A stretch of 64,000 nt of DNA. It comes from Streptomyces sp. BK208. Lineage in GTDB: Bacteria > Actinomycetota > Actinomycetes > Streptomycetales > Streptomycetaceae. The stretch covers positions 1-64,000 of the forward strand of contig NZ_SOAV01000016.1 in assembly GCF_004364245.1 (NCBI RefSeq), given 5' to 3'. Shown here piece by piece: positions 10,715 to 63,136 of this stretch. Below the pieces are notes generated by a model that worked only from the letters and a program-made list of their open reading frames with translations, had not been told where the DNA came from and did no database searches. Every line of letters starts with the position of its first letter. The stretch's first letter is position 1. Both the position numbers and the translations under genes were made by a program.

Positions 10715-10753
10715 GCCCGTGCGGCACAGGCCTGACCCCTGTGCCGCACGGGC
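10715..10753. terminator. Bidirectional hairpin terminator
   Basis: A perfect 16-bp inverted repeat (10715-10730 with 10738-10753) with a 7-nt loop sits exactly between the convergent TetR and YeeE/YedE genes and ends both transcripts. Confidence 0.85.
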
Positions 10754-57560: not shown

Positions 57561-58906
57561 GCAGCAGCGAGCCGACGAGCGGGGCGGCCCCGGCACCCCG
57601 GCGGGGCGCGCCCCTCCCCCATGACCTCCGGGACGAGGCCGAGCGCCTGACCCGTGAGCAGCTCCGGGAGCTCCAGCTCGACCGCCTGCGCGCGACCCTG
57701 CGGCACGCCTACGACAACGTGGAGCTGTACCGCGAGAAGTTCGACGCCGCCGGAGTCACGCCCGAGGACTGCCGCAGCCTCGCGGACCTGTCCAGGTTCC
57801 CCTTCACCACCAAGGCGGACCTGCGGGACACCTATCCCTTCGGGATGTTCGCCGTGCCGATGTCCGACGTGCGGCGCGTGCACGCCTCCAGCGGCACCAC
57901 CGGCCGCGCCACCGTCGTCGGATACACGGACGACGACCTGTCCATGTGGGCGGACGTCATAGCCCGTTCGATCCGCGCCGCCGGCGGCCGCCCCGGCCAC
58001 AAGGTGCACATCTCCTACGGCTACGGCCTGTTCACCGGCGGACTCGGCGCGCACTACGGCGCCGAGCGCGCCGGGTGCACGGTGATCCCGGCCTCCGGCG
58101 GCATGACCGCACGCCAGGTGCAGATCATCCAGGACTTCCGGCCCGAGATCATCATGGTGACCCCCTCCTACATGCTCACCCTGCTCGACGAGTTCGAGCG
58201 GCAGGGCGTCGATCCGCGCGGCACCTCCCTGGAGGTCGGCGTCTTCGGAGCCGAGCCGTGGACCGAGGAGATGCGGCGCGAGATCGAGGAGCGCATGGAC
58301 ATCCACGCCGTCGACATCTACGGCCTGTCCGAGGTGATCGGCCCCGGTGTGGCCCAGGAGTGCGTCGAGACCAAGGACGGGCTGCACATCTGGGAGGACC
58401 ACTTCTACCCCGAGGTGGTGGACCCGCTCACGGACGCCGTGCTGCCCGAGGGAGAGGAGGGGGAGGTCGTCTTCACCTCGCTCACCAAGGAGGCGCTCCC
58501 GGTCATCCGTTACCGCACGCGCGACCTGACCCGGCTGCTGCCCGGCACCGCGCGTCCCGCTTTCCGCCGGATGCAGAAGGTCACCGGCCGCTGCGACGAC
58601 ATGATCATCCTGCGCGGGGTGAACGTCTTCCCCACCCAGGTCGAGGAGATCGTGCTGCGGACTCCCGGCGTCGCCCCGCACTTCCAGATCCGGCTCACCG
58701 AACGCGGCCGCATGGACCACATGACCGTACGCGTCGAGGCCCGCCCCGATGCCGGTCCCGAGCAGCGCGCGGCCGCCGCGAGGGCGATCGGACAGGGCGT
58801 CAAGGACGGTGTGGGCGTCAGCGTGGAGGTGGAGGTCGTCGAGCCGGAGACGCTGGAGCGCTCGCTCGGCAAGATCCGCCGGGTGTGGGACCAGCGGGGC
58901 GCGTGA
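57557..58906 (+). CDS. paaK: Phenylacetate-CoA ligase
   Basis: 449 aa adenylate-forming enzyme. The P-loop-like [33 protein letters not shown], the hinge Asp/Arg region [13 protein letters not shown] and the final catalytic Lys in RSLGKIRRV are all present. It activates phenylacetate to its CoA ester with ATP, the entry step to the PaaABCE epoxidase. It is coupled to paaI by ATGA. Confidence 0.96.
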
Positions 58907-58981
58907 AACGTGATCACCGACACCCCGCTCCCCGGGTCGTACCGGTGTGCGCGCAGTTGCGGATGGGCAGGAAGTGCGTGA

Positions 58982-60316
<1,335 letters not shown>

Positions 60317-60424: not shown

Positions 60425-61579
60425 TCAGGACACCGCGAGCGGCTGACGGGCCGTCCGTGCGGCCGGCGGACGGACCGCGTACGCCTCCGAGGAGAGGTAC
60501 GCCGTCACCCGCGGCGGCTGGTCGCGCTGGTGGGCCAGGGCCAGGTAGGCGATCAGGCCCGCTCCGTCCTCGGGCCGCCGTTCGGTGAGGGCGGCCACGG
60601 CGCGGTCGAGCACGGAGGCGTCCATGCCGTGGTGGCGGAGCACCCACGACGCCCGTGTCAGCGCCTCCCCGTCGTGCCGGACGTAGTCCCTGACCGGGAT
60701 GTGCAAGGTGAATCCGCTCGGCCGCGCGGCACCGGGTTCGGTGAAGGAGTGGCAGGACAGGCCGGGGCGCCCGTCGAGCCCCGCCGCGTCGGGACCCGGG
60801 CCCGCGGCGGTGCGGAAGAACCCCTCGACCGCCGCGGGACCGGGGCCCGGGTCCATGCGGGGCAGCCGCCCGGCCTGTCCGGCCGTGAGGTGGTCGTGGC
60901 GGACGTAGACCTTCGCCCGGGGCTCCGCCCAGTCACCGAGGTCCAGGGCGAGGAACGGGTAGCCGCGGCCCGCGGGCAGGCTGTCGAAGGCCCGGCCGTG
61001 ACCGAGCCGGTGCAGGGCCTCGCGCACCGTCGTGGCGGAACGTTCCTCCCCGCCCGCCGCCGGGTTGAGGTAGACCTTGACCTTGGGAACGCCGCCGGGC
61101 CTGAGTTCCAGGGCGCACCACAGGGCGAAGGGCCCCTGCGGGGCGGCCGGCAGGAACAGGTCCGTGAGCTCGTCGAGGACGTCGGTGCCGAAGTTCCAGC
61201 GCCGCGCCATCGCCCGGATCGTCTCCAGTCCGACCCGGCCGCTGTGAGCCAGGCTGTCTGCGCCGCAGCCCGGTTCCACGAGCACCCGCATCGAGGGTGC
61301 CGCGTCCGGCCGGAAGGAGAGGGAGAACTCCACGGGGGTGTGGTCGTCGGACAGGAAGGTCCGGGTGGGCGGCGGCAGGCTCAGCGGCCGCTCGGCCACC
61401 GGACCCAGGGAGTCGGTCAGGACCTGTGCGTAGGTCTCGGCGTCGGCCCGGGACAGGCCGGCGACCGCGCCGAGTCTTCGCAGCTGACCGCTGGTCAGGG
61501 AGCCGAGCGTCGGCGTGCGCCGCGGGGCCGCGCCCGTCGGGGTGCGCCGCGGCCCCCGGCCCGTCGGTGCGGCGGTCAC
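60425..61579 (-). CDS. Tryptophan dimethylallyltransferase family (ABBA-fold) indole prenyltransferase
   Basis: 384 aa from the GTG at 61579. Features of DMATS-type ABBA prenyltransferases include FSLSFRPDAAPSMRVLVEP, FALWCALELRPGGVPKVKVY, RAKVYVRHDHLTAGQ and FTLHIPVRDYVRHDGEALTR (diphosphate-binding Lys/Arg/Tyr on alternating strands). It would prenylate tryptophan with dimethylallyl diphosphate. The nearest match I recall is SCO7467, a 5-position enzyme. The start is set by a GTGA overlap with a 35-codon upstream ORF that has the good ribosome-binding site. The first 25 residues are Pro/Arg/Thr-rich. Confidence 0.88.
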   Translation of the reverse strand: MTAAPTGRGPRRTPTGAAPRRTPTLGSLTSGQLRRLGAVAGLSRADAETYAQVLTDSLGPVAERPLSLPPPTRTFLSDDHTPVEFSLSFRPDAAPSMRVLVEPGCGADSLAHSGRVGLETIRAMARRWNFGTDVLDELTDLFLPAAPQGPFALWCALELRPGGVPKVKVYLNPAAGGEERSATTVREALHRLGHGRAFDSLPAGRGYPFLALDLGDWAEPRAKVYVRHDHLTAGQAGRLPRMDPGPGPAAVEGFFRTAAGPGPDAAGLDGRPGLSCHSFTEPGAARPSGFTLHIPVRDYVRHDGEALTRASWVLRHHGMDASVLDRAVAALTERRPEDGAGLIAYLALAHQRDQPPRVTAYLSSEAYAVRPPAARTARQPLAVS

Positions 61580-61683
61580 CGGCCCGCCCCCGGTCGGAGC
61601 CGCACAAAGCGATACCCGCCTCGGGGGGCGGGTATCGGGGGTTTCGGCGCCGGGAAAGCGGCGTTCGTGGATATGTCGTCCAC
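61576..61683 (-). CDS. 35-aa upstream ORF translationally coupled to the prenyltransferase
   Basis: GTG at 61683, four nucleotides after a full AAAGGAGG Shine-Dalgarno sequence, opens a 35-codon frame starting MDDISTNAAFPAPKPP and ending FVRLRPGAGR. Its TGA overlaps the GTG of the prenyltransferase. The prenyltransferase GTG itself lacks a good ribosome-binding site, so it probably relies on ribosomes ending here. A 10-bp hairpin lies inside the frame at 61611-61636. The peptide is Pro/Arg-rich with no Trp or Cys, and I do not recognise it. Confidence 0.6.
   Translation of the reverse strand: MDDISTNAAFPAPKPPIPAPRGGYRFVRLRPGAGR
61611..61636 (-). promoter_or_regulatory. Attenuator-like hairpin inside the prenyltransferase leader ORF
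   Basis: GATACCCGCC (61611-61620) and GGCGGGTATC (61627-61636) form a perfect 10-bp stem with a 6-nt loop, followed on the minus strand by GCTTTG. Ribosomes translating the leader ORF would disrupt it; without translation it could stop transcription. Confidence 0.5.
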
Positions 61684-61700
61684 GACACCTCCTTTGACTC

Positions 61701-61729
61701 GTGAGCAACGTGAGTACCGCGTTGCTCAC
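61701..61729. promoter_or_regulatory. Perfect 10-bp inverted repeat upstream of the prenyltransferase leader
   Basis: GTGAGCAACG (61701-61710) and CGTTGCTCAC (61720-61729) with a 9-nt spacer, just upstream of the Shine-Dalgarno sequence of the leader ORF and 58 nt after the P450 stop. On the minus strand a TAGTGA hexamer overlaps one arm. It may be an operator, a 5' UTR hairpin or the conservon terminator. Confidence 0.45.
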
Positions 61730-61786
61730 TACCCGTGCCGTTCGGTCATCATGCGAAAGGGGCGGGTTGGGCAGGTGTTGCGCAGA

Positions 61787-63136
61787 TCACCGTGTGAGCC
61801 AGTTGAGGAACTGGCTCCACATGCCCTTGTGTTCGGCGGGACGCGCCGCGGTCTGCGCCTTCTCCCGTTCGGCCGCCGCGGATGGCTGCCCCGGCTCGGC
61901 GCGCCGTGCGGTGCGCACCGGGGTGAAACGGGCCGGGAGCGTGGCCAGCGCCCGGTTGAAGGGGCCCGGACGCCACGTCAGGCTGTCCTCGGGCACGGCC
62001 AGTTCGACGTCGGGCAGCTCGTTGAGCAGGTGCTCGACGGCCGTGACGGTGATGTGCCGGGCCGGTTCCTTCGACGGGCAGGCATGCGGGCCCGCACTCC
62101 ACGCGAGGTGCGCGCGGTTGCTCCCGGCCTGGCGGGACGCCTTCAGCGCCGGACCGGTGTTGGCGGCGGCGAAGCTCACCAGGACCAGGTCGCCCGCCTG
62201 GAGCTGCTGTCCGGCCAGTTCGGTGTCGGAGGCCGGGTAGTGCGGGGCGTAGTTGGCCATGGGCGGGTTCTCCCACAGCGTGTCGTCGAGGGCCTCGTCG
62301 ATCAGGCCGCCCTCGCGGGCGTACCGCTCATGGGTGAGGAGCCGGTGCAGGGTGTTGCCCAGGAGGTTGCGCAGGGGCTCGGCTCCCGCGCCCAGGAGCA
62401 GGGCGAGTTGGTGGACCATCTCCTCGTCGTCCAGCCCCGCCTCGTGCCGCATCAGCCAGGAGGTGACGTCGTCGCCGGGCTTGCGCCGCTTGAGGGCGAC
62501 GAGTTCCCCCACCGCTTCGAACAGCACCGCGGTGGCCTTCTCGGCGTTGACGCCGTCGAACATGCCGGAGATGCCGAACAGCACCCGGTCGCCGATGTCG
62601 GCGGGGCAGCCGAAGAGTTCGTTGAACACGAACAGCGGCAGCTGCTTGGCGTAGTCCCCGAGCAGGTCGGCCGAACCGCGGGCGCCGAACTGGGAGATGA
62701 GGTAGCCGGAGATCTGCTCGGTGCTGCGGCTCAGCCGCCGGGCGTCGACCCGCGCCATGCTGTCGGTGACCGCCTGGCGCAGCCTGAGGTGGTCGGCGCC
62801 GTCGGCGAACATGCAGTTGGGCCGGTAGGCCAGCAGCGGCGCGACCGGGCTGTCCGGGCTCACCTTGCCCTCGTTGAAGGCCCGCCAGCGGCGTGCGTCC
62901 TTGCGGAAGGTCCCCGAGTTCTGCAGCAGTTGGAGCGCAGCGGCGTAGTCCGTGACCAGCGTCGCCTCCACCCCCGGGGCCAGTTCGACGGGGGCCGCGG
63001 CCCCGTAGTGACGCAGGTACTCGTAGTAAGCCTGCGGGTCGGCGGCGAACTCGGGCCCGTGCAGCGGCACCCGGGCGCCGGAGCCGTGGGCCGGGCAGCC
63101 GGGCGGCGGCACCGGGGCGGTGTCGGGGGCGTTCAT
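61787..63136 (-). CDS. Conservon-associated cytochrome P450, CYP157-like
   Basis: 449 aa. The haem-thiolate region reads WSAGPHACPSKEPARH with Cys353. Two normally conserved features are missing. The K-helix ExxR is replaced by DTLW (residues 285-288), and the I-helix AGxET is replaced by GAGAEPL, without the Thr. Loss of ExxR is a published property of the CYP157 family of Streptomyces, whose members occur in conservons. The ATG overlaps the stop of the GTPase-like gene (ATGA). Redox partners and substrate are unknown; a signalling rather than biosynthetic role is possible. Confidence 0.9.
   Translation of the reverse strand: MNAPDTAPVPPPGCPAHGSGARVPLHGPEFAADPQAYYEYLRHYGAAAPVELAPGVEATLVTDYAAALQLLQNSGTFRKDARRWRAFNEGKVSPDSPVAPLLAYRPNCMFADGADHLRLRQAVTDSMARVDARRLSRSTEQISGYLISQFGARGSADLLGDYAKQLPLFVFNELFGCPADIGDRVLFGISGMFDGVNAEKATAVLFEAVGELVALKRRKPGDDVTSWLMRHEAGLDDEEMVHQLALLLGAGAEPLRNLLGNTLHRLLTHERYAREGGLIDEALDDTLWENPPMANYAPHYPASDTELAGQQLQAGDLVLVSFAAANTGPALKASRQAGSNRAHLAWSAGPHACPSKEPARHITVTAVEHLLNELPDVELAVPEDSLTWRPGPFNRALATLPARFTPVRTARRAEPGQPSAAAEREKAQTAARPAEHKGMWSQFLNWLTR

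Follow-up and report, generated by a model that had tools for sequence, protein, structure and literature searches.

Why does a prenyltransferase gene of Streptomyces sp. BK208 begin on the stop codon of a 35-codon open reading frame that contains a hairpin of its own, and what has kept the two together? An earlier note on this DNA proposed a translation-dependent switch for a specialised-metabolite gene and, as a further possibility, a small functional peptide. Here the locus is described in the window (the whole stretch of 64,000 nucleotides that was analysed) and compared with its relatives. The switch survives as the best reading of a conserved frame, overlap, Shine-Dalgarno sequence and hairpin, although its mechanism is one that we infer from sequence. 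The functional peptide does not survive.

The prenyltransferase locus and its coupled leader frame

The downstream gene (60425-61579, minus strand) encodes an SCO7467-type tryptophan dimethylallyltransferase, hereafter PT. Its product matches PF11991 (41.4 bits), the DMATS-type prenyltransferase of PDB 6zrz (645 bits) and PriB (470 bits), and had thus rightly been called a tryptophan prenyltransferase. A conservon-linked cytochrome P450-like gene (61787-63136, minus strand) lies 5' of PT, as it does in nearly all relatives, and a flavin monooxygenase (FMO) gene is convergent with PT. The order of conservon, P450-like gene and PT fits the Type B cluster layout described previously (PMC3617294).

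Some features of the surroundings are recorded here in their own right. The P450-like protein has no Pfam match at E <= 0.001 and retains a heme-loop-like GPHAC motif; it is perhaps a degenerate, non-canonical P450, yet one that is strongly conserved (pN/pS 0.25-0.29). A perfect inverted repeat, GAGCCAGTT-cctc-AACTGGCTC, codes for the C-terminal WSQFLNWL of this protein (about 61790-61825, minus strand); two of its Trp codons stand directly before the P450 stop, and the repeat is also found in several relatives. A separate conserved block, GGATGGGCAGTAAA...GCATGATCGGGGGAGG, is shared by close relatives on the plus strand 5' of the FMO gene (58880-59018). Further perfect inverted repeats, 12-17 bp long and with short loops, occur at window positions 10715, 18091, 21809, 50090 and 55429 and are candidate terminators or regulatory hairpins.

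The leader frame (uORF; 61576-61683, minus strand) has 35 codons, runs from a GTG at 61681-61683 to a TGA at 61576-61578, and encodes the peptide MDDISTNAAFPAPKPPIPAPRGGYRFVRLRPGAGR. Its Shine-Dalgarno (SD) sequence, AAAGGAGGT (61687-61695, minus strand), forms an anti-SD duplex of -15.1 kcal/mol, against -9.7 kcal/mol at the PT start, which bears out the earlier attribution of the strong SD to the short frame. The PT start codon, a GTG at 61577-61579, is overlapped by the leader TGA, so that the two genes share the GTGA at 61576-61579 (minus strand) that had already been pointed out. The difference in SD strength is a property of the family, with means of -12.9 kcal/mol for the leader and -8.5 kcal/mol for the PT start. 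The entire leader is more stably folded than its shuffles (z = -4.4).

Relatives were collected by a scan of named genomes, which gave 80 PT loci, and by a search of 296 Streptomyces genomes, 63 of which had a match, which gave a further PT set. These loci are related by descent, and the counts below are not counts of independent events. In 98 loci the leader frame opens behind an SD and ends in only two ways, by an NTGA overlap with PT (87 loci) or by in-frame fusion to it (11 loci). The leader takes 25 different lengths between 31 and 83 codons, all of which keep the frame; thus many length changes have been accepted, and only those that preserve it. On the PT tree the conservon-linked clade has the overlap as its ancestral state, and fusion arose from it in at least 2-3 changes. 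Frame, overlap, SD and hairpin are therefore kept far outside the window, as the check for conservation proposed in the earlier note had asked. In PT relatives beyond the conservon-linked clade (41-48% identity) the whole cassette is absent.

Two groups of loci depart from the common form. Three Kitasatospora loci (L064, L065 and L067) have the leader fused to PT, have lost the hairpin core, and show an extended distance of 66-67 nt from promoter box to leader start. The clade of L052, L056-L058 and L062 has a coupled leader of 77-79 codons in which the ATGA overlap and the promoter are retained, the hairpin core is altered and the T tail is gone.

The hairpin within the leader

The hairpin, H3 (61610-61637, minus strand), lies inside the leader frame, 25-100 nt before the PT start among the loci. 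In the window it is formed by CGATACCCGCC-CCCCGA-GGCGGGTATCG (-21.4 kcal/mol) and is followed by CTTTGTG; the perfect stem reported earlier is present, with 11 bp rather than 10. The reported GCTTT tail is also present (61602-61609, minus strand), but the T run is weak in the window clade and stronger in most relatives, where it reads TCTTCTTG or TTTTTG. Perfect repeats of this kind are rarely expected by chance, since at least one (at least 10 bp, loop 3-12) arose in this region in 4 of 2000 dinucleotide shuffles, and a single one of the 2000 had two or more.

H3 has the two marks of an intrinsic terminator: a GC-rich stem of the stability given above and a T-rich tract, with a mean of 3.9 T in the 8 nt 3' of the stem against 0.9 expected. 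A strict terminator scan gave no match for H3 of the window clade, in which the T run is weak. The core, GATACCCGCC-N6-GGCGGGTATC, is identical in 84 of 99 loci, in clusters of Type B as well as of Type A (no FMO). Because the search expression contained this core, the 84 agree in it by construction, and the informative figure is 84/99. The loop measures 6 nt in 82 of these 84 and has 45 different sequences. The second outer pair of the stem is A-T in 75 loci, G-T in 6 and G-C in 3, and is never unpaired. This constant pairing, wobble included, favours an RNA structure over a DNA site. One additional locus (L095) carries GATACCCGTC-N6-GACGGGCAT, in which a core pair is changed and compensated.

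The exact H3 sequence was found in 32 of the 296 Streptomyces genomes, in all 32 just upstream of a PT homologue, and once in the genome of the window itself. A generic Streptomyces terminator was rejected because H3 occurs only at PT loci in these genomes, and this restriction points to a dedicated terminator-like RNA element. By sequence comparison, H3 is conserved, beyond its pairing alone, to a greater degree than termination would need.

Hairpin and frame are closely interwoven. H3 is kept in 7 of the 11 fused loci and is found in both reading frames. L107 is the one overlap locus in which H3 stands in another frame, and its loop there has 5 nt rather than 6, whereby the frame to the overlap is restored. 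The coupled frame or the fusion is nonetheless kept in the 15 of 99 loci that do not have the exact core, and H3 is thus not essential to the coupling.

Promoter region and other pairings

The sequence GCATGA-N14-GGGTAG (61729-61754, minus strand) is a predicted promoter of the SigB type. In 97 of 98 loci the leader is preceded by GCATGA-N14-GGGTA(G/T), always at the 14-nt spacing and thus in the GNNT-N14-16-GGGTA form of such promoters; this box lies 48-56 nt 5' of the leader start in nearly all loci. The pattern GCATRA-N14-GGGTAG has a single match in the genome. It shares the GNNT...GGGTA form with the SigB-type promoters of S. coelicolor, among them SCO0566p (GCATAA-N14-GGGTAT; PMC8346170), a likeness seen here in the sequence, and a SigB-type sigma factor would be its probable reader. 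The predicted transcription start site is at about 61722, upstream of the leader, so that the transcript should contain the leader. The earlier note had made its proposal depend on the transcript not starting downstream of 61683, and the predicted promoter agrees with it. A promoter type common to PT and FMO was rejected, the GGGTA box being absent 5' of FMO in 51/52.

The perfect 10-bp inverted repeat noted earlier just upstream of the frame, here IR1 (GTGAGCAACG-N9-CGTTGCTCAC, 61701-61729), is present and takes in the last part of the -10 box together with the predicted start site. There are relatives in which its arms are changed and yet still paired. In all, 223 of 310 cells are paired against 202 +/- 4.7 in shuffles, none of 1000 of which was as high. 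IR1 may be an operator or the stem-loop of the mRNA 5' end.

Other pairings fared less well. In a candidate hairpin, H2 (61655-61694, minus strand), the SD and start codon would be paired with leader codons 5-10. H2 is stable in the fold of the window and 87.8% of its cells are paired, but as a hairpin that hides the SD it was rejected: its covariation is not above shuffles, the RNAalifold consensus failed, and over 30 divergent relatives there is no excess stability against energy shuffles. It is kept as a prediction only. Covariation was no better than shuffles for a pairing of the upstream CACGA with the region of the start codon. A pairing of the upstream GGGTA with an arm of H3 was rejected because GGGTA is retained where H3 is lost (L024 and L061), and this box is better explained as part of a promoter. 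Inspection of the mRNA by eye showed no conserved antiterminator partner for the 5' arm of H3. Among the models of Rfam 15, nothing reached the gathering score except one tRNA elsewhere, and the leader itself gave only a chance match (E = 0.88); a known riboswitch was accordingly rejected.

Leader translation and prenyltransferase expression

Taken together, these features suggest a translated, translationally coupled uORF with an intrinsic-terminator-like attenuator, such that PT expression would depend on translation of the uORF. To this reading, drawn from comparative sequence, we give somewhat better than even chances. Transcription from the SigB-type promoter directly upstream would give an mRNA whose 5' UTR is short. 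On it a ribosome would load at the strong SD, translate through the uORF, stop at its TGA and re-initiate at the overlapping PT start, so that the PT start would need the overlap and PT translation would be coupled to that of the uORF. When the leading ribosome is close behind RNA polymerase, H3 could not form and transcription would continue; when the uORF is untranslated or the ribosome lags, H3 would form and terminate transcription early. PT output would in this manner be gated twice by uORF translation, and the sequence of the peptide would be irrelevant.

The second of these gates may be a modest one in the window clade. In E. coli, translation has little effect (about 10%) on terminators that lie within 100 bp of the start of a coding region (PMC4824070). 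H3 of the window clade ends 73 nt past the leader start codon and has a weak T run, and relief of termination there could thus be slight or partial; in Type A clusters H3 begins later, often more than 110 nt after it. This weak effect on early terminators lends some weight to the main alternative, as do the common occurrence of NTGA overlaps and of bicistronic coupling and the 11 overlap loci in which H3 is lost and the uORF stays. This alternative holds that the uORF, as a natural bicistronic leader, secures translation of a GC-rich start, and that the hairpin is unregulated and terminates the upstream conservon-P450 operon or limits read-through. In every locus, however, the promoter box, SD and uORF start that belong to PT all precede H3, and the hairpin would therefore also stop PT transcripts. 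H3 is moreover kept within the coding frame of fused PT genes, and a plain terminator would not require nearly so much conservation of sequence. We regard this alternative as unlikely, though as one to be taken seriously.

In another proposal, a dedicated sequence-specific factor, an RNA-binding antiterminator or a ligand, would recognise H3 and gate polymerase through the uORF. We consider this doubtful. A little less probable still is that H3 is a sequence-specific binding site, either a DNA operator or the RNA target of a protein, while the uORF provides coupling only. The core identity in 84/99 loci, the 6-nt loop in 82 of 84 despite 45 loop sequences, and the restriction to PT loci would fit such a site, but the T-rich tail and the tolerated G-U pairs indicate an RNA terminator hairpin, the position of H3 relative to start and stop varies, and no linked regulator gene was identified. 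That H3 is a second SigB-type promoter with transcripts starting inside the leader is very improbable: one arm contains GGGTAT, a SigB-type -10 box, but no GNNT -35 box stands 12-16 nt away, the hexamer there being nGATAC or GATACC, and the paired left arm and T tail would be left unexplained.

A functional micropeptide in addition to a regulatory hairpin is scarcely credible either. Outside the hairpins, leader pN/pS is 0.89-2.0 in the two alignable sets, compared with 0.42-0.45 for PT (a control computed on the codon alignment) and 0.25-0.29 for the P450 in the same strains. A leader ratio near 1 against that of PT argues that what is kept is the open frame and its end, not the peptide. There is no third-position excess in the leader, in which position 3 varies no more than positions 1 and 2; thus the earlier expectation of a conserved frame with synonymous bias holds for the frame and fails for the bias. 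Between clades the middle of the peptide shows no relationship, and the fused lineages (11 loci) have the leader as the N-terminus of PT, so that no free peptide would be released. MDHISTNAAF near the start is well conserved in one large clade, but codons 2-10 have no synonymous differences in the window clade (pS = 0), which points to a constraint at the nucleotide level there; H2, put forward to account for it, failed the tests described above. The comparison shows conservation of the promoter box, the SD, the frame and its overlap, the hairpin and its T-rich tail, and no selection on the peptide.

The favoured reading, a coupled uORF with a built-in attenuator, has relatives among known systems. 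In pyrBI-type attenuation of E. coli, cited as such in PMC4824070, the leader ORF runs through the terminator, and the distance between ribosome and polymerase decides the outcome. The PT leader, with a conserved terminator-like hairpin and T tail inside its ORF, may work in a similar way; in contrast to pyrBI, there is no UTP-sensing U-rich pause tract before H3 (the leader of the window is C-rich there) and no pyrimidine gene, and the stop codon of the leader either overlaps the start of the structural gene or is missing.

The trpL, leuL and ilvL attenuators of Streptomyces (PMC8079986, PMC1262725) resemble the PT leader in having a short ORF and a terminator-like hairpin before an amino acid-linked gene. 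The PT leader differs in that it has no regulatory codon run and no conserved antiterminator was seen by eye, and in that the ORF continues through the hairpin, which lies inside it and not 3' of the leader stop as in a classical attenuator. Attenuation at Trp codons was rejected, as the window leader has no Trp, only 12 of 87 overlap leaders have any (0.3% of residues), and a run of Trp codons is thus missing.

Expression of PPE2 in M. tuberculosis requires a uORF with an AUGA overlap (PMC11260477). Like the PT leader, the uORF of uPPE2-ppe2 carries an SD, lies upstream and has a 4-nt NUGA overlap, a combination present in 87 of our 98 loci, the other 11 being fused. Downstream expression there proceeds by termination and reinitiation at the uORF, which is proposed here for PT by analogy. 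In uPPE2-ppe2 a B12 aptamer (riboswitch) controls the uORF, and a contribution of Rho to uORF dependence was considered. The PT leader has no known aptamer and instead has an intrinsic-terminator-like hairpin inside the uORF; neither sensing codons nor an aptamer nor a linked regulator gene was found for it. Each of the parts is of a known kind; what the literature searched does not describe is their combination, the restriction to this locus and the conservation of the hairpin sequence.

SCO7467/IptA-type clusters are widespread, and their product is negligible in native hosts; from the native cluster in S. lividans it was obtained only at a negligible level (PMC3617294). With a predicted stress-type promoter of its own, a coupled uORF that is obligatory and a putative terminator inside it, the conserved leader offers a testable reason for this and a possible handle for switching the pathway on. 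If H3 did serve a dedicated factor, it would represent a new class of attenuator in specialised metabolism, kept in Streptomyces, Kitasatospora and Actinacidiphila. The coupled leader would also give Streptomyces a clear case in which selection keeps the translation of a uORF, and not its peptide or its codons.
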